Source: Alcanivoracaceae bacterium
GTDB lineage: Bacteria > Pseudomonadota > Gammaproteobacteria > Xanthomonadales > Marinicellaceae
Length of the DNA: 53,556 nt
Assembly: GCA_016744455.1 (NCBI GenBank)
Contig: JADGEI010000025.1
Span: 1 to 53,556, forward strand
Direction: 5' to 3'
Both the position numbers and the translations under genes were made by a program. Positions 1,988 through 9,321 of the stretch are shown here, one piece after another (position 1 is the stretch's first letter; each line of letters opens with the position of its first letter). A model generated the notes under the pieces. The model was given only the letters and a program-made list of their open reading frames with translations, searched no databases and had not been told where the DNA came from.

Positions 1988-3049
1988 TTAAAGCCGTTTT
2001 ATAAGCTCATCAGTAAACTCAATTGTCCCAACTTTAGTATCACCATTTTGAAAGATGTCTGTGGTTCTAAACCTGTCTTCTAACGTTTTAATTACCGCTT
2101 GTTCAATTTGTGTGGCTTGATTATCTAGGTCGAATGAATAACGTAGCATCATAGCTGCACTTAAGATTTGTGCTGTTGGGTTAGCAATGTTTTGGTTGGC
2201 AATGTCAGGTGCGGAGCCTCCAGATGGTTCGTAGAGTCCAAACCCATCAGGTGAAAAACTGGCCGATGGCATTAAACCTAATGAACCTGGCAAAGCACTC
2301 GCAGCATCAGAGATTATGTCGCCAAATAGATTGGCTGTGACTATGGTATCAAATTGCCCAGGGTTAAGGATGATTTGCATGGCACAGTTATCAACTAACA
2401 TGTGTTCCAACATTACTTCGGGATAGTGTTCAGCAACTTCATTGGCAATTGTTCGCCATAGCTTTGAAGTGTCTAATACATTGGCTTTGTCCACTGAGGT
2501 CAGTTTTTTATTTCTAGTCATAGCCGTTTGGAAACCTTTGTGTAAGGCTATCTTAATCTGATTCTCATCATAACGTGCTTCGTCAGTGGCAATGCGTAGT
2601 CCATTTTCTATAAATTGTTTATGCTCACCAAAATAGATGTCTCCCAATAATTCACGTATAATCATAATATCTACCCCTTGTTCGATTAATTCTGGTTTAA
2701 GAGGAGAAATATTTATTAATGATTTATACAAAGTTGATGGCCGAATATTAACATTTAAGTGTAATGCTTGACGTAATGCGAGTAACGAGTTAGCTTCACA
2801 TTTTTGCCACTTAGGTAAATGGGCATCGGCTATTGGGCCGCCAACTGATCCAAACAACACGGCATCAGAATTTTGACAAAGTTGAGCTGTTTGTTCAGGA
2901 AAATGTAACTGGTGTTTATCATAAGCCGCTCCACCGATTAAACCGTGTTCAGTTTTGAAGGATAAATTCAATCCGTCAAGTACACGTAGAGTTTGTGTCA
3001 TGACTTCTGGGCCGATTCCATCACCGGCTAGTATGGCTATTTTTTTCAT
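1988..3049 (-). CDS. leuB: 3-isopropylmalate dehydrogenase
   Basis: 353 residues, close to the usual 355-365. LeuB oxidises and decarboxylates 3-isopropylmalate to 2-oxoisocaproate with NAD+ in leucine synthesis. Visible signatures are the N-terminal ILAGDGIGPEV, the VREL-like IIRELLGDIYFGE loop that contacts the substrate isopropyl group, the ANLFGDIISDAASALPGSLG metal-binding Asp segment, and the GSAPDIANQNIANP NAD-binding loop. Its ATG overlaps the stop of the upstream GGDEF gene by four bases, implying translational coupling. The GGDEF gene separates it from leuD. Confidence 0.97.
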   Translation of the reverse strand: MKKIAILAGDGIGPEVMTQTLRVLDGLNLSFKTEHGLIGGAAYDKHQLHFPEQTAQLCQNSDAVLFGSVGGPIADAHLPKWQKCEANSLLALRQALHLNVNIRPSTLYKSLINISPLKPELIEQGVDIMIIRELLGDIYFGEHKQFIENGLRIATDEARYDENQIKIALHKGFQTAMTRNKKLTSVDKANVLDTSKLWRTIANEVAEHYPEVMLEHMLVDNCAMQIILNPGQFDTIVTANLFGDIISDAASALPGSLGLMPSASFSPDGFGLYEPSGGSAPDIANQNIANPTAQILSAAMMLRYSFDLDNQATQIEQAVIKTLEDRFRTTDIFQNGDTKVGTIEFTDELIKRL

Positions 3050-4929
3050 AGTGAGTATTTTATTTGGTTTCTGCCTTTTTCTTTTGCGATGTATAATAAA
3101 TCATCAGCGATTTTTATCATATCATCGATAGTGTTAAATGACAGTTGTTTTGTTTTATCGTAGAAACAAACGCCAGTTGATATTGAAACATTTAAATTGT
3201 CGATGTTTAATTTTATAGATAAGCTAGCAATATCAATTCGCAGTTTTTCTAACAGTTCTTTTACCTTATTGTCTGCCAAATTTGAAAAACAAACAATAAA
3301 TTCTTCGCCGCCAAAACGACCTGTAATAGATTCTTTTGGTAATAAACTTGAACAAATCAGCCCAACTTCTTTAAGGACCTTATCACCTTGTTGGTGGCCG
3401 AATATATCATTGATATTTTTAAATAAATCAAGATCAAACATTGCGATTGCAAAATTTGTTCTTTTTGTTTTATTTTGATCAAAAAGAGCAGTCAGTAATT
3501 CAAGTGATTTTGAACGGGTATAAACGCCGGTTAAACTGTCAATATTGGCTAATTTTTCAAAGTAATTTTTATTTTTACGAAACCAATAAGCATAAATTAG
3601 CAAAACAACAGAAACCAAGATTAAAAAGAATAATTTGTATTTCAAATTTTTGTTATTTCGTGCTTGTAAAATAATTTTTATTTCATTAATTTCATTATTT
3701 TTAGTCAATATCTGATTTTGTTGATCTTTGGCTTCAAGCTCGTATTTGGTTCTTAGTTTGTGTAATTGTTGAGTGCTTTGTTTTGACAAATGTTTTTTCT
3801 CTTTTAGCATTACATTCCAAAGCTTATTATAGGCTTTTTCATACTCTTGTTTGTGTGCCATAACATTTGAAACTTGTTTCAAAAGGGAAATGTATTGAAG
3901 GGGTTGTCTTTTTTCATCAATAAATTTAATGGCTTCTTCTGTATAATATTCAGCCATTTTTGGGTTGTTTTGTTTGATGGCTAATCGGCTCAAGATTATA
4001 TGTATATCAAATTGCATCAAATGATTATTAGAATTTTTAAATTCAACCAAGGATTTTTCAATTAACTCTTGTGCTTTGGAAAAATTTTCATTTTTCATTT
4101 CTAAACCAGCTAATTCTTTCCAAGCATATGCCGCACCTTGTTTGTCGTTAATTTCAACAGAAACATCTGCGGATTCTTGCAGTTCCTTGAATGCTAAATC
4201 ATTTTTACCAGTTATGCCGTGAGCTCGGCCAAGCCCATATAATGCAATGCTTAATTCAACCCAGTTGTTTTTTGCTCTGTGATAATCAGCAGCTTGCTGG
4301 TAATAGGGAATCGATAAATCATCTTCTTTTCGATACTCATAAACCAAAGCTATAATTCCTGCTATTTCCGCCGGTGCTGTGTTATTGGATTGATTGGCTA
4401 ATTGATAAGATTGATGCAATGTATCAAGAGCCGAAATGTATTCACCTAAACTGATTAATAGATAACCATAGACAATTTGAGCATCTATAGTTAACTCTAA
4501 ATCATGAGTGCTTTCAGCCCATTTTAATGCTGAAATACTGGTACTCAAGCCTTTATTGGGTTGTCCGGCACTATCAAATGATATAGATAAAGCTAATTGC
4601 AGTTTATGGAATAACCAAGGCTCTTTCTCAAAAGTCACATATTTTAAACCGGTTTTAGCATGAGATATGGCTAATTCAGAGTAAATCAGTGTGTTATAAA
4701 CCGAGCTTAATAATAAATGGTGTTGTGCTAGAATATTTTCATCTTCTTTATCGCTGGGAATGTTGGCTTTTAAATAGCTTAATACGGCATCAGGATTTGA
4801 TTGAGTTTTAAAATTTAGGTTTTTATAAACATCATCCATTTCAGTGACCCACTGTTTAGCATAAACATTTTGGCTCATGCTTATAAACACTAGAACTGTC
4901 ATTGGTATTAGATAGAAGTTTTTACTCAT
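3046..4929 (-). CDS. TPR-sensor GGDEF diguanylate cyclase
   Basis: 627 residues. A signal peptide covers residues 1-25 (ending VYA), and a predicted periplasmic region of TPR-like helical repeats runs to about 400. A coiled coil leads to one membrane segment near 430-450 (LFFLILVSVVLLIYAYWF), then a cytoplasmic GGDEF domain. The active site reads GGEEF at 540-544, so it should make c-di-GMP from two GTP. At the place of the allosteric I-site the sequence is PKES, not RxxD, so product inhibition is unlikely. The gene lies between leuD and leuB and overlaps leuB by four bases, an odd location that would tie its expression to leucine demand. The input signal is unknown. Confidence 0.9.
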   Translation of the reverse strand: MSKNFYLIPMTVLVFISMSQNVYAKQWVTEMDDVYKNLNFKTQSNPDAVLSYLKANIPSDKEDENILAQHHLLLSSVYNTLIYSELAISHAKTGLKYVTFEKEPWLFHKLQLALSISFDSAGQPNKGLSTSISALKWAESTHDLELTIDAQIVYGYLLISLGEYISALDTLHQSYQLANQSNNTAPAEIAGIIALVYEYRKEDDLSIPYYQQAADYHRAKNNWVELSIALYGLGRAHGITGKNDLAFKELQESADVSVEINDKQGAAYAWKELAGLEMKNENFSKAQELIEKSLVEFKNSNNHLMQFDIHIILSRLAIKQNNPKMAEYYTEEAIKFIDEKRQPLQYISLLKQVSNVMAHKQEYEKAYNKLWNVMLKEKKHLSKQSTQQLHKLRTKYELEAKDQQNQILTKNNEINEIKIILQARNNKNLKYKLFFLILVSVVLLIYAYWFRKNKNYFEKLANIDSLTGVYTRSKSLELLTALFDQNKTKRTNFAIAMFDLDLFKNINDIFGHQQGDKVLKEVGLICSSLLPKESITGRFGGEEFIVCFSNLADNKVKELLEKLRIDIASLSIKLNIDNLNVSISTGVCFYDKTKQLSFNTIDDMIKIADDLLYIAKEKGRNQIKYSL

Positions 4930-5560: not shown

Positions 5561-6954
5561 AACACTTCTCCAGTTTTATTGAAATAATTTATAGGGGACA
5601 CTATTTTGCCTGCAATAGCACTTGCGGCTACGGTGGCAGGAGAGGCCAGATGTGTGATACTTCCTGTGCCTTGTCTGCCGACAAAATTACGGTTGGTTGA
5701 TGAAATACAGCGAGAACCTTCAGGAACTTTGTCATCATTCATTCCTAAACACATGGAACAACCTGGCATACGGAATTCAGCTCCTGAAGCATTAATAATG
5801 TCTATTAACCCTTCACTTTCTGCTTGTGCCATCACTTGTTCAGATCCAGGTACTACATAAAAGGTAATATGTTCAGCTACTTGTCGATTTTTTAGTATAG
5901 CTGCAGTAATGCGCATGTCTTCAATACGTCCATTGGTACAAGAACCAACAAAAGCCCAGTCTAAATGTGTATTTTTTATGGGTTGATTAATGGATAATTT
6001 GACGTAATCTAAGGCATTATTCGACATGTCATCTTGGTTATTTGGAATGGCTTGATCAATTTCAATCGCTTGTTGTGGGTTTGTTCCCCAGGAGACCATA
6101 GGTTCTAAATTGTTAATATTGATATTAATTGTTTTATCATAACTACATCCTTCTTCACTTTTTAAGCTTTCCCAGTAGGTAACGGCTTTATCCCATTGTT
6201 TCTTTGGTGCGTATTTTCGCCCTTTAATATAGCCATAGGTTGTTTTGTCTGGAGCACATAAACCGGCAACTGCTCCGCATTCTATGCTCATATTGCATAA
6301 TGTCATGCGTGATTCCATACTCATGGATTCTACTGCATCACCTGTGTATTCAATAATGTGGCCATTTGCACCACCAATTCCAATTTCAGCAATAAGTTTC
6401 ATTATGGCATCTTTGGCAGAAACCCCAGGTTGGAATTTGCCATTAAAATCAACTTGCATGGTTTTAGGTTTGTCCATTAATAAACAACCGCTGGCAAATA
6501 CATGTCCAACAGTCGATGTACCAATACCAAAAGCAATGGCACCAAATGCACCGTGAGTAGCTGTATGTGAATCACCGCAAACGATGGTCATTCCTGGTTG
6601 CGTAATACCTAGTTCTGGGCCAACAACGTGCACAATACCTTGGTGAGATGAATCCATATCATAAAAAGGAACATTGAATTCTTTAGTGTTATCACGTAAT
6701 TTTTGCACTTGTGCTTTAGCAGACTCATCGAATATTTCATGACGATTTTTACGTGTAGGGATACTATGGTCAACTGTTGCTAATAAGCTTTGTGTATCAT
6801 AAACACTTAGCCCCTTGTTGCGTAATGTATCAAAAGCTTGTGCAGAAGTCACTTCATGTAAAAGACAAAAATCAATGGCCAATATGGCTGGATGACCTTG
6901 TGTTTTTTTTACAATGTGGGATTCCCACACTTTATCTATTATATTTTTATTCAT
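5557..6954 (-). CDS. leuC: 3-isopropylmalate dehydratase large subunit
   Basis: 465 residues, the standard length. An aconitase-family catalytic subunit carrying a [4Fe-4S] cluster. The cluster cysteines are visible in VGSCTNGR (about 336-343) and in the MPGCSMCLGMN motif (about 394-404). DHSIPT and GDSHTATHGAFGAIAFGIG are substrate-site motifs. With LeuD it forms the isopropylmalate isomerase. The gene overlaps the upstream osmC-like gene by eight bases and leuD by four, so the block is translated as one coupled unit. Confidence 0.97.
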   Translation of the reverse strand: MNKNIIDKVWESHIVKKTQGHPAILAIDFCLLHEVTSAQAFDTLRNKGLSVYDTQSLLATVDHSIPTRKNRHEIFDESAKAQVQKLRDNTKEFNVPFYDMDSSHQGIVHVVGPELGITQPGMTIVCGDSHTATHGAFGAIAFGIGTSTVGHVFASGCLLMDKPKTMQVDFNGKFQPGVSAKDAIMKLIAEIGIGGANGHIIEYTGDAVESMSMESRMTLCNMSIECGAVAGLCAPDKTTYGYIKGRKYAPKKQWDKAVTYWESLKSEEGCSYDKTINININNLEPMVSWGTNPQQAIEIDQAIPNNQDDMSNNALDYVKLSINQPIKNTHLDWAFVGSCTNGRIEDMRITAAILKNRQVAEHITFYVVPGSEQVMAQAESEGLIDIINASGAEFRMPGCSMCLGMNDDKVPEGSRCISSTNRNFVGRQGTGSITHLASPATVAASAIAGKIVSPINYFNKTGEVL

Positions 6955-7420
6955 TGTAATTGGGTTTTATGTGAATTTTTGTTTTAACTGAGTTAGCAAT
7001 AAAACAGTGCTTATGTGCGTTATGATGTATTTTGTCAATTTGTGCTGATGTTGGTTTTTTGTCACCAGAAAATACTATTTTCGGGCATAGGGTTACATCA
7101 GTCATTGCCATTTGTTTTTCTTTATTTATTTGCATGATTCCTGTGGCATTGTCACAATAACTATCGATTGTGTATTTTTTTGTTGCAGCAAAAGATAAGA
7201 AAAACAACATATGACAACTGGCTAAAGAAGCAATAAAAGCTTCCTCTGGATCGACATTTGCAGAAACAGAATAGGGCAAAGGAACCACTAGTGGTGAGGA
7301 AGAGGCAGGAATAATTTCCCCGCCATCAAACTCCCAATTGTGTGCACGAGAATACTTGTTGTCACTAAATATTTCGTTGCTCTGACGTTGCCATTTTATG
7401 GTTGCGAAATAGTTTGACAT
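6947..7420 (-). CDS. OsmC/Ohr-family protein
   Basis: 157 residues. OsmC-fold proteins are small homodimeric thiol peroxidases that reduce organic hydroperoxides using two cysteines. Here the family pattern appears as DPEEAFIASLASCHMLFFL, with the first (peroxidatic) cysteine in the SLASCHM helix, and a second cysteine in HNAHKHCFIANSV. It lies one base after leuA and overlaps leuC by eight bases, so it is firmly inside the leu operon. One possible role is protecting the oxygen-sensitive LeuC iron-sulfur cluster or removing oxidants; this is inference from position. Confidence 0.88.
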   Translation of the reverse strand: MSNYFATIKWQRQSNEIFSDNKYSRAHNWEFDGGEIIPASSSPLVVPLPYSVSANVDPEEAFIASLASCHMLFFLSFAATKKYTIDSYCDNATGIMQINKEKQMAMTDVTLCPKIVFSGDKKPTSAQIDKIHHNAHKHCFIANSVKTKIHIKPNYNE

Positions 7421-7421
7421 A

Positions 7422-9041
7422 TTAACTCGCTATTTTATGTGCTTGTATGGAAAAGTTTTTATGCACAACTGTCCGATTAACTGCATTGACTAAAGCTTTA
7501 AGTGCCGATACTTCAATATCTATGTCTTCGCCTAATCCTGTATACAAGTCATTGGAGTAGGAAATACTGATTGATGAAACACTCAGTGCTTCTTCACCTT
7601 TGTCTTTAGATTGTGAGCGAAAAGACTCAATACTAATTGGAGCAAGGTATTCTTCTAAAGCATGATGCAATGCGGTGAGAGCCGTTCCACCGATTTTACT
7701 AACAGCGTTGATGGTTTTTTCTTCTCCGTTAAAAGTGCCATCTATATTAATTTCTGTAACTTCAGCACGTTTACGGTACTTATATGTTTTGATTTTTATA
7801 GGCGCTCGGTATGCAAAATAGGCTTGCATAAATTCAGGGTCAGTTAACCCTTTTCGTCGATTAGAAAAATAATCTTTGATAAATTGCGTTAGTGTGATTT
7901 TTTCATTGTTGTCGCAGACATAGCCGTGTTCTTGAATAATCGATTGTGCATGGTTGCTGCCGCTTAATGGGCCAAAGATAAAGGTGATTTCTTTGCCCAC
8001 ATCTTTGGGGTCAAAAGGTTGATAGGCTTGTGGGTTTTTTAAAATTGCATTGGTGTGCCCTCCTGATGAATGACGTGCTGCATTTTCGCCACTAATTGGC
8101 CAATGCGCTTGCCTCGGTAACATATGAGTAGCGACGAAATCAGAGATATCTTTTATGCCATGTGTTTTGGTAGTGGTATGGTAATTTTGATTGGTGCTGT
8201 TATTCATGCCAAAGGCTTTTAAGTACATTATGCATTGTTCTAATGACACATTTCCTGCTCGTTCACCAATGCCATTGAAACAACCCTCAATTTGAGTGAC
8301 AGGCCCATCAAATATAGACTGCATAGTATTAGTTAAGGCTAAACCGTAATCGTTATGGCAATGAGCTGACCAAATAATGTTTTTATCTGGGTAACGCTGA
8401 GACATTATATCAGCATGTCGTTTCATCTTGTTGACAAAAAAATCATCGCCTTGCAAATAACAAGCTCCGCCTATGGTATCAGGGCAATTGATAATAGTTG
8501 CACCAGCCTTGATTGCTGTATCAATGACACCGGTAACAAAATCAAAGCTATCGCCCATGCGTGAATATCCTTCAGGCGAAAACTCAACTTCGCATCCTGC
8601 ATCAATTGACATGGTGATGTATTTGTATAAATCTTTATGAATTTTTTCGTGATTGTCAGCGTAACTACCCAAAGAGGCTTTCATCAATTCCGGGTCAACT
8701 GGTACATAAACATGAAGACGTGCACGACCCGATGGAATTAAGCTTTTCAATGATTCGATGGTTGTAATGATTTGTTCTTCTCGCATTTGGCATAAAGCCG
8801 CTACTTTTGGTGAAGACTTCATTTGTGCATACATTTGGGCGATGCTTTTGACTATTTTGAAATCTTCAGCACTTGCCGCTGGAAATCCTGCTTCTAAAAT
8901 ATCAATTTGAACATTGGCTGCTAATCGCGCATAGTCGAGGTTTTCTTCAAAGTTCATTCCTGCACCCGGGCATTGCTGGCCATCACGCAATGTAGTGTCG
9001 AAAATATGTACGTGTTTACTGGTTTTATTTGTTGTTGTCAT
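7422..9041 (-). CDS. leuA: 2-isopropylmalate synthase
   Basis: 539 residues. It condenses acetyl-CoA with 2-oxoisovalerate, the first committed step to leucine. The HMGL-like TIM barrel opens with FDTTLRDGQQCPGAGM, and the metal-binding SAHCHNDYGLALTNTMQ follows at about 224-240, then the GxGERAGN motif. The C-terminal region from about 400 is the LeuA allosteric domain that normally binds leucine. It heads the operon after the leader peptide. The Shine-Dalgarno-like AAGAG six bases before ATG is complementary to the leader's leucine codons (see the leader RNA entry). Citramalate synthase is less likely given the full leuABCD set. Confidence 0.96.
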   Translation of the reverse strand: MTTTNKTSKHVHIFDTTLRDGQQCPGAGMNFEENLDYARLAANVQIDILEAGFPAASAEDFKIVKSIAQMYAQMKSSPKVAALCQMREEQIITTIESLKSLIPSGRARLHVYVPVDPELMKASLGSYADNHEKIHKDLYKYITMSIDAGCEVEFSPEGYSRMGDSFDFVTGVIDTAIKAGATIINCPDTIGGACYLQGDDFFVNKMKRHADIMSQRYPDKNIIWSAHCHNDYGLALTNTMQSIFDGPVTQIEGCFNGIGERAGNVSLEQCIMYLKAFGMNNSTNQNYHTTTKTHGIKDISDFVATHMLPRQAHWPISGENAARHSSGGHTNAILKNPQAYQPFDPKDVGKEITFIFGPLSGSNHAQSIIQEHGYVCDNNEKITLTQFIKDYFSNRRKGLTDPEFMQAYFAYRAPIKIKTYKYRKRAEVTEINIDGTFNGEEKTINAVSKIGGTALTALHHALEEYLAPISIESFRSQSKDKGEEALSVSSISISYSNDLYTGLGEDIDIEVSALKALVNAVNRTVVHKNFSIQAHKIAS

Positions 9042-9047
9042 GTGTTG

Positions 9048-9143
9048 CTCTTACGTGATTTATCAGAATATGGGGTTACCTGTTTGTCCTGAGGTAATCA
9101 GGTGAACGCAGTTTTCAATAAACTGCTAGATAAGTCGTAAGAG
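9048..9143 (-). promoter_or_regulatory. leuA leader RNA: long-range pairing that can hide the leuA ribosome-binding site
   Basis: In the transcript, CUCUUACG (9143-9136), lying in the CTC-TTA-CG part of the leader peptide's leucine run, is the exact complement of CGUAAGAG (9055-9048), which contains the leuA Shine-Dalgarno region. Between them are two local hairpins: CAGTTT/AAACTG (9125-9109, loop ATTGA) and GTTcACCTG/CAGGTAAC (9107-9075). No U-tract follows either hairpin, so a classic transcription terminator is not evident. A ribosome stalled on scarce Leu codons would break the pairing and free the leuA start. The complementarity is seen; the mechanism is inferred. Confidence 0.6.
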
Positions 9144-9227
9144 TAGAAGATTTGATAAGCCAAAAGATTTGCTTTGCAAAAGAGATATGGCAAAATTTCT
9201 TGTAAATTTATTGGCTTGGTTTTTCAT
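9126..9227 (-). CDS. leuL: leu operon leader peptide
   Basis: A 33-codon reading frame starting at ATG 9227 and ending with TAG at 9126, 84 bases before leuA. The peptide ends ...SNLLLLRLI: eight of its 33 residues are leucine, five of them in the last seven codons (CTT CTA CTC TTA CGA CTT ATC). This is the hallmark of an amino-acid-sensing leader such as E. coli leuL. The peptide probably has no function beyond translation. It starts about 37 bases after the predicted transcription start. Only a weak purine-rich site precedes it. Confidence 0.85.
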   Translation of the reverse strand: MKNQANKFTRNFAISLLQSKSFGLSNLLLLRLI

Positions 9228-9268
9228 CTTGATCTTAAAGTAACAATTTTAATTTAATCAATCAAGAA

Positions 9269-9299
9269 ATTATCATGATTTTTATGTAAATATTGACAA
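9269..9299 (-). promoter_or_regulatory. Predicted leu operon sigma-70 promoter
   Basis: On the minus strand TTGTCA (9299-9294) serves as -35 and, after 17 bases, ATGATA (or the overlapping GATAAT) serves as -10. The start of transcription would be near 9264, giving a leader of about 37 bases before leuL. Its -35 overlaps the -35 of the divergent sdpR promoter. Confidence 0.5.
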
Positions 9300-9321
9300 A
9301 TAGATATTTAGATGGTAATCT
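9293..9321 (+). promoter_or_regulatory. sdpR promoter, leaderless
   Basis: Perfect -35 TTGACA at 9293-9298, 17-base spacer, -10 TAATCT at 9316-9321. The ATG of sdpR follows the -10 by only six bases, so the transcript should begin at or next to the start codon. Confidence 0.65.

Follow-up and report, generated by a model that had tools for sequence, protein, structure and literature searches.

The leuA gene on this stretch of DNA is preceded by a short leader open reading frame (ORF) whose last leucine codons are predicted to base-pair with the Shine-Dalgarno (SD) sequence of leuA itself, and we think it likely that the leader RNA is a leucine-sensing translational attenuator of leuA, with the SD directly occluded by the leucine codons. 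The pairing is found genus-wide and a terminator was found at none of the nine same-genus loci, so that the element is best read as acting on translation rather than on transcription. The window, by which we mean the whole stretch of 53,556 nucleotides that was analysed, comes from a genome of 3.62 Mb in 47 contigs. Its leu genes, the leader ORF and the putative promoter of the leader are as follows.

7422..9041, minus strand: leuA, encoding a protein of 539 aa that is 2-isopropylmalate synthase-like by its best NCBIfam matches; the gene proposed to be regulated.
6954-5557, minus strand: leuC, downstream of leuA in the same direction.
5560-4973, minus strand: leuD, downstream of leuA in the same direction.
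9126..9227, minus strand: leader ORF of 33 codons, MKNQANKFTRNFAISLLQSKSFGLSNLLLLRLI, ending LLLLRLI-stop, with no clear SD before its start.
9237..9245, minus strand: extended -10 box TGT-TACTTT, from loci aligned on the leader ATG.
9260..9265, minus strand: -35-like hexamer TTGATT, from loci aligned on the leader ATG; putative promoter element.

The best NCBIfam matches of the LeuA protein are 2-isopropylmalate synthases, with every score below the curated cut-off, and the protein is of a divergent type. This type is rare, with relatives at E <= 1e-100 in 5 of 369 sampled genomes of the class, its own genome included; the four further genomes are gammaproteobacterial, and their proteins are 50-52% identical to that of the window. 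A plasmid search for the type at E <= 1e-60 returned no matches. Between leuA and leuC, and in the same direction, lies a gene (6947-7420) with a weak match to the peroxiredoxin (OsmC-like) family. Past leuD, an ORF at 1988-3049 is presumably leuB, and between the two lies an ORF of 627 aa (3046-4929) with what we take to be a GGEEF motif near its end, as in diguanylate cyclases.

LeuA of this type is encoded in nine of 11 genomes of the same genus, and the leader ORF stands upstream of leuA in all nine (loci L011 to L019, L011 being the window). In every one of them the leader carries a run of leucines at its C-terminus, the peptide upstream of this run being mostly divergent among the loci. 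With the loci aligned on the leader ATG, the -10 hexamer reads TACTTT, TACCTT or TAATGT, TGTTA is invariant in nine of nine, and TTGnnn is found 17-18 nt upstream of the -10 hexamer in the nine loci; a generic promoter scan of the window region did not report the -35-like hexamer at 9260..9265. The distance from the end of the -10 hexamer to the leader ATG is exactly 9 nt at all nine loci, and these 9 nt hold no clear SD by eye (GGGA is present in L019). At the usual distance from a -10 box, transcription would start some 0-4 nt upstream of the leader ATG. Because the conserved -10 box ends so close to the ATG throughout the genus, the leader ORF is probably leaderless, the promoter spacing pointing to a 5′ untranslated region of only a few nucleotides.

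Folding of the RNA between the leucine codons and leuA predicts four helices, P1 to P4, two of which form a base stem around the other two.

9136..9143, minus strand: P1 5′ strand, CTCTTACG, inside the Leu-Leu-Arg codons.
9048..9055, minus strand: P1 3′ strand, CGTAAGAG, covering the leuA SD TAAGAG (9053-9048).
9129..9133, minus strand: P2 5′ strand, TTATC, inside the Leu-Ile codons.
9060..9064, minus strand: P2 3′ strand, GATAA.
9108..9126, minus strand: P3 hairpin, GCAGTTT-ATTGA-AAACTGC, beginning in the leader stop codon.
9088..9102, minus strand: P4 hairpin, CCTGA-TTACC-TCAGG.

When the stretch from the leucine codons to the leuA ATG was folded, P1, P2, P3 and P4 were all present in the minimum-energy fold of each of the nine same-genus loci. 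P1 is 8 bp long in all except L014, where it has 6 bp. P2 lengthens the base stem to 8 + 5 bp in the window; in the relatives it is formed by GACTT, GACTTA or GACTTAT (Arg-Leu-Ile codons) on the 5′ side and TAAGTC, TAAGTT, ATAAGTT or AAGTC on the 3′ side. P4 is a CCTRA...TYAGG hairpin across the loci. The original prediction had described a 33-codon leader ending LLLLRLI before leuA, an exact 8-bp complement between CTCTTACG (9143-9136) and CGTAAGAG (9055-9048), and two hairpins enclosed by it. The leader is indeed present on the minus strand at 9227-9126, ahead of the leuA start at 9041, the complement lies where it had been placed, and the hairpins fall at 9126-9108 and 9102-9088. The pairing of leucine codons with the SD proposed there is kept genus-wide; the exact 8-bp complement, however, is unique to the window among the nine loci, the SD of the others pairing in a slid register with TTCTCTTA, CTTCTCTT, ATTCTCTT or, in L014, ACTCTT, and P2 had been missed. 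As a separate observation, an AGGA made of the end of P4 and one unpaired A (9087-9090) is kept at all nine loci, with no close start codon in the window.

The predicted fold is more stable than that of shuffled sequence. For the 108-nt stretch from the leucine codons to the leuA ATG in the window, z was -4.28 and none of 200 dinucleotide shuffles was as good. Across L011 to L019, with 200 such shuffles each, z was -4.28, -2.83, -2.57, -1.91, -3.21, -5.45, -3.21, -5.50 and -4.12, with 0, 0, 2, 4, 1, 0, 1, 0 and 0 shuffles as good; folding was weakest in L014 (z -1.91, 4/200), followed by L013 (2/200). L015 and L017 share the same letters in the aligned region. With the whole leader folded, P1 was present at eight of the nine loci, the SD of L017 pairing with an upstream part of the leader instead.

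Taken as a bare duplex, P1 is unremarkable. Six of 297 other start regions (ORFs of at least 150 aa from 20 stretches of the same genome plus the window, leuA left out) bind the leader segment of the window as strongly, and for the other eight leaders 17 to 104 of the 297 pair as well. Among synonymous recodings of the leader, 82 of 1000 pair as strongly over positions -35..+3 in the window, with 63 to 536 of 1000 across the nine loci; over a narrower interval, 5 to 409 of 1000 pair as well across loci. Within the fold, the pairing probability between the SD 6-mer and the leucine codons is 0.999 in the window, against a shuffle mean of 0.334 and with one of 300 shuffles of the downstream part as high. 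The same probability is 0.88-1.00 at all nine loci (shuffle means 0.23-0.43), and the fraction of 300 shuffles as high is 0.003, 0.017, 0.007, 0.060, 0.003, 0.007, 0.033, 0.003 and 0.013 for L011 to L019. Fisher's combination over the seven non-redundant loci (L014 and L017 left out) gives 1.2e-9, a value that overstates the case, the loci being related. The shuffle fraction for P2 is 0.003-0.150 in the same seven loci. P1 is thus predicted to exceed chance within the folded element, and hardly so as a bare duplex. By folding alone, the ribosome-binding site of leuA would be closed at all nine loci when the leader is unoccupied.

The leader codons that would take part in this closure hardly vary. 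CTC TTA CGA CTT and the stop codon TAG are identical in nine of nine leaders, the intervening ATY varying only at its last base, and it is these invariant codons that make up the 5′ strands of P1 and P2. The neighbouring leader Leu codon at -7 varies between CTT, CTG and CTC. In LeuA of the same nine genomes, used as a control, one codon is kept throughout at 1 of 22 conserved Leu and 1 of 14 conserved Arg residues, and at 46 of all 350 conserved positions that have a degenerate codon.

Covariation in related genomes, which the original prediction had put forward as its check, is found in P3 and P4, and within the genus alignment P1 and P2 show no double-sided changes. In P3, C-G/U-A exchanges alter both sides among the loci; P4 shows G-C/G-U/A-U and A-U/G-C changes. 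Together, P3 and P4 contain four pairs in which both partners change (a count reached by 29 of 500 shuffles) and eight double-change cells (0 of 500). For the structure as a whole, the covariation score is 0.177 against 0.120 +/- 0.014 in shuffles (0 of 500 as high), and 88.2% of alignment cells are paired, as compared with 84.6% in shuffled and 41-55% in slid alignments. The count of pair types does not exceed that of shuffled alignments, being reached by 350 of 500. L017, whose letters are those of L015, was left out of the structural alignments. Few double changes are possible in P1 and P2, since their 5′ strand hardly varies. P2 pairs in 66.7% of alignment cells, which we read as a lower bound and attribute to misaligned linkers. 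The alignments misplace P2 in L015, L016, L018 and the window, and P3 in L016 and L018; as they fail to line both up, the covariation test understates P2 and P3.

The sister genus Marinicella offers a comparison in which the SD itself differs. There, leuA is found in 11 of 18 genomes, ten of them with upstream DNA; L030, whose leuA is cut by the contig end and which has no upstream DNA, was left out, as were L031-L035 (weak or partial matches) and L002-L010 (duplicates of contigs already in the set). A short ORF that is Leu-rich near its end precedes leuA at all ten loci, the Leu-richest ORF having been chosen at each. The Marinicella SD differs from that of the window genus, and in several loci the leader is altered to match it: the CTCTTA:TAAGAG of the window genus has as its counterparts the leader/SD pairs TTGCTCC/GGAGCAA (L021), CCTCTT/AAGAGG (L023), CTCCTGC/GCAGGAG (L026) and TTACCC/GGGTAA (L029). 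SD pairing is in excess of 100 shuffles at six of the ten loci (p 0.00-0.08), with no excess in L020, L022, L025 and L027 (p 0.22-0.56, 100 shuffles).

Swapping SDs between loci weakened the pairing, the own SD of a leader being the better partner (16 loci, ten from Marinicella and six from the window genus, with L013, L014 and L017 left out; p 0.0003); the permutation treats related loci as independent, so that its p-values overstate the significance. The ten Marinicella loci alone gave p 0.030, 0.012, 0.0017 and 0.012 in four choices of interval, Marinicella with one same-genus locus added each time gave p 0.003-0.035, and two subsets pruned of near-duplicates gave p 0.002 and 0.021. Exceptions were L020 and L022, where the own SD ranked among the worst, and L021, where it came second of ten only with 48 nt of leader taken. 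Judged from these sequences, the swap test comes closer than any other result to covariation for P1.

These comparisons bear on the possibility that the pairing is a coincidence, in which pyrimidine-rich Leu codons merely resemble an anti-SD and the conserved codons are kept for their rarity. CTC is indeed rare (551 of the 11,644 leucine codons counted in ORFs), and coincidence would agree with a P1 duplex that by itself does not stand out from those of other start regions, with shuffled controls that often partly pair (mean 0.23-0.43) and with four of ten Marinicella loci lacking excess pairing. It sits poorly, however, with the outcome of the swap test across two genera, with four consecutive codons that are identical in nine of nine leaders, beyond the rare CTC, while Leu codon -7 varies, and with P2 as a second partner for the same leader stretch. 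We judge coincidence highly improbable, and continue with the leader as an occluder of the leuA SD.

The Marinicella leaders are not copies of the element in the window. A candidate assignment of both genera to the same element was rejected, as a covariance model of the window element matched none of the 18 Marinicella genomes. At seven of the ten loci (L020-L026), one TTCGAA directly follows the leader stop and another lies 62-72 nt upstream of leuA. The two copies could pair mutually, beside a stem near the SD, which in L020, L022, L023 and L024 reads GACGT...ACGTC. The layout of L020-L026 is possibly that of an alternative-structure attenuator of a different build. Masking by a modelled stalled ribosome (A-site codon -5) raised the unpaired fraction by at least 0.05 at six of the ten Marinicella loci, left it flat at three and lowered it at one. 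Terminator-like hits before mixed-T stretches were found at four of the ten (L020, L022, L023, L024).

Outside the window genus, the element was not detected. The covariance model gave one match in each of the nine leuA-bearing genomes of the window genus and none in the other 24 genomes of the family, including two same-genus genomes without a leuA match. Its own genome was the sole match among 274 sampled genomes of the class, a scan with stricter filters in which weak relatives may be missed. No comparable leader was seen, by eye and in ORF listings, in the four other Gammaproteobacteria with this LeuA type; in L066, L068 and L069 a reading frame appears to extend up to leuA. Membership of a known Rfam family was rejected, with no matches at gathering score in the window and none in the nine relatives scanned, out of 18 with upstream DNA; the region 8950-9300 gave three unrelated weak Rfam matches, with E up to 5.

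We propose that the element works as follows. Transcription would start a few nucleotides before the leader ATG, and the leader would be read leaderless or nearly so. With leucine plentiful, a ribosome would complete the 33-codon leader and depart, leaving the Leu-Leu-Arg-Leu-Ile codons free to pair with the linker (P2) and the leuA SD (P1), around P3 and P4; this closure, predicted by folding and conserved, would block translation of leuA. With charged leucyl-tRNA in short supply, the ribosome would stall on the CTT CTA CTC TTA codons and cover the 5′ strands of P1 and P2, which would free the SD. Both a transcription terminator and a competing anti-sequestor would be unnecessary, and leuC and leuD might, speculatively, follow via coupling or slower decay of translated mRNA. 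What the sequences show is that the element is conserved and predicted to fold; repression, release, leaderless initiation and the leucine response are our inferences.

Modelling of the stalled state gives a mixed picture of such a switch. When a ribosome with CTC in its A site was modelled and all RNA 5′ of its leading edge was masked, the SD became more accessible at eight of nine loci, its unpaired fraction rising from 0.02-0.08 to 0.41-0.92; in L012 it remained closed (0.04 before, 0.02 after). When the mRNA upstream of the ribosome was allowed to pair, the region -15..-4 opened at six of nine loci and closed further in L012, L015 and L017. P3 and P4 persist in the modelled stalled fold at eight of nine loci, P4 being replaced in L011 (the window), and the modelled stalling creates no further helix that the nine same-genus loci share. 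The erm-type mechanism invoked in the original prediction is hence not quite apt, as the modelled stalled state has no competing anti-sequestor hairpin shared by the loci. The SD opens to a similar extent with a ribosome modelled on the leader stop codon, so the switch would work only if the leader is rarely entered; a leaderless leader fits such rare initiation.

A compact, conserved structure of this kind might also be sensed by a protein or a small molecule rather than by the leader ribosome, leaving the ORF as a relic, and the authors who described the actinobacterial LEU element favoured a binding protein for it, citing Streptomyces leader mutations unlike attenuation (PMC1262725). A relic would not be expected to look as this ORF does: it is open with a C-terminal Leu run at nine of nine loci despite its divergent upstream peptide, the spacing between its ATG and the -10 box is constant across all nine, and a Leu-rich ORF recurs at ten of ten Marinicella loci (again with the Leu-richest ORF chosen). 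A sensor other than the ribosome is in our view quite improbable, and we retain the leader ribosome in that role.

The same RNA was scanned for signs of control at the level of transcription. A consensus scan from the leader ATG to position +60 of leuA reported no terminator-like site at any of the nine same-genus loci, nor was one found in the window between 8900 and 9420, in line with the lack of a U-tailed terminator in the original prediction. An intrinsic terminator within P4 was considered as a candidate and rejected, the T-run being present in only five loci and lying within the P4 loop and 3′ arm. This run, of seven T, is found in L012, L013, L014, L015 and L017 and is absent from L011, L016, L018 and L019.

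Classical transcription attenuation or Rho-dependent termination could nonetheless gate leuA, with the SD pairing as a by-product. Precedent comes from Shewanella, where leuA has been described as having a transcription attenuator with a Leu leader peptide (PMC2659441), and from Epsilonproteobacteria, whose leader RNAs, including leuL, are reported to end shortly past the stop codon, termination being proposed for these Leu leaders (PMC3847290). The seven-T run inside P4 of five loci also fits this explanation, and a translation block could expose Rho sites, Rho then acting downstream of the switch. Against a terminator-based gate, a hairpin with a U-tail was found at none of the nine loci, P4 is kept by other pairs in L011, L016, L018 and L019 without a T-run, and the near-invariant 5′ strand and its SD partner would be given no role. 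We regard gating by termination as unlikely, and direct occlusion of the SD by the leader codons as the better account.

A broader claim could be made from the two genera together: that an occlusion switch working in one step is shared across the family, with sensor codons that are themselves the anti-SD of their own gene, with a leaderless and rarely entered leader that lets the SD re-close, with leader codons and SD changing together, and with an origin independent of the actinobacterial LEU element. We advance it tentatively, as something that may well be so and whose chances we put a little below even.

Transcription termination is the step on which amino-acid leader peptides of Proteobacteria are generally assumed to act, and the enterobacterial leuL attenuator joins a Leu-rich leader peptide to terminator and antiterminator hairpins. 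In the translational attenuation of erm and cat genes, a ribosome that stalls in the leader ORF uncovers a ribosome-binding site otherwise hidden, with an antibiotic as inducer and competing hairpins as the switch. The element described here shares with leuL of enterobacteria and Shewanella the Leu-rich leader peptide before leuA and, as proposed, ribosome stalling as the sensor, whereas leuL is described with terminator and antiterminator hairpins and a terminator was found at none of our nine loci. As in erm and cat, stalling would open up a ribosome-binding site that is otherwise closed, but by the ribosome sitting directly on the anti-SD strand rather than by a switch between competing hairpins. 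A leader without an SD has a parallel in the Corynebacterium glutamicum ilvB leader, which is said to have no ribosome-binding site.

In Sinorhizobium meliloti, the trpL leader, a leaderless attenuator ORF in trp transcription attenuation, stands at the very start of its transcript (PMC7298713). Our leader would resemble it in this position, its leaderless state being deduced here only from promoter spacing, and differs in that trpL controls transcription of trp genes, unlike the translational attenuation proposed for leuA. Among the matches listed in the open-licence literature, as judged by title and abstract opening, this element was not described.

The closest published design found is the actinobacterial LEU element upstream of leuA, in which, as published, Leu codons and the leuA SD form a base stem around a pseudoknot (PMC1262725). 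Pairing between Leu codons and the leuA SD is therefore already known, and the element described here is a gammaproteobacterial case of different build. The original prediction had called its layout a variant of known leu attenuators, but the layout has a precedent in the LEU element (PMC1262725). Both have a leader ORF with Leu codons before leuA and a base stem between Leu codons and SD, predicted by folding in our case, and in the LEU element, too, other attenuator elements are missing according to its authors (PMC1262725). The LEU element encloses a pseudoknot or alternative hairpin (PMC1262725), whereas here two plain hairpins and P2 are predicted, by folding programs that predict no pseudoknots, with nested hairpins filling much of the enclosed sequence. 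The two belong to different phyla and are likened here by the published description (PMC1262725). Seliverstov et al. left the mechanism of the LEU element unsettled in 2005 and thought classical attenuation unlikely (PMC1262725), whereas in the present genus the leader ORF is conserved and lies at a fixed distance from its promoter. If our reading is true, it would represent a compact form of amino-acid-sensing translational attenuation in Gammaproteobacteria, with codons that serve both as the sensor and as the anti-SD. A second lineage with a stem between Leu codons and SD, in which leader and SD apparently change together, would also argue that the leader ribosome is the sensor in the LEU element.
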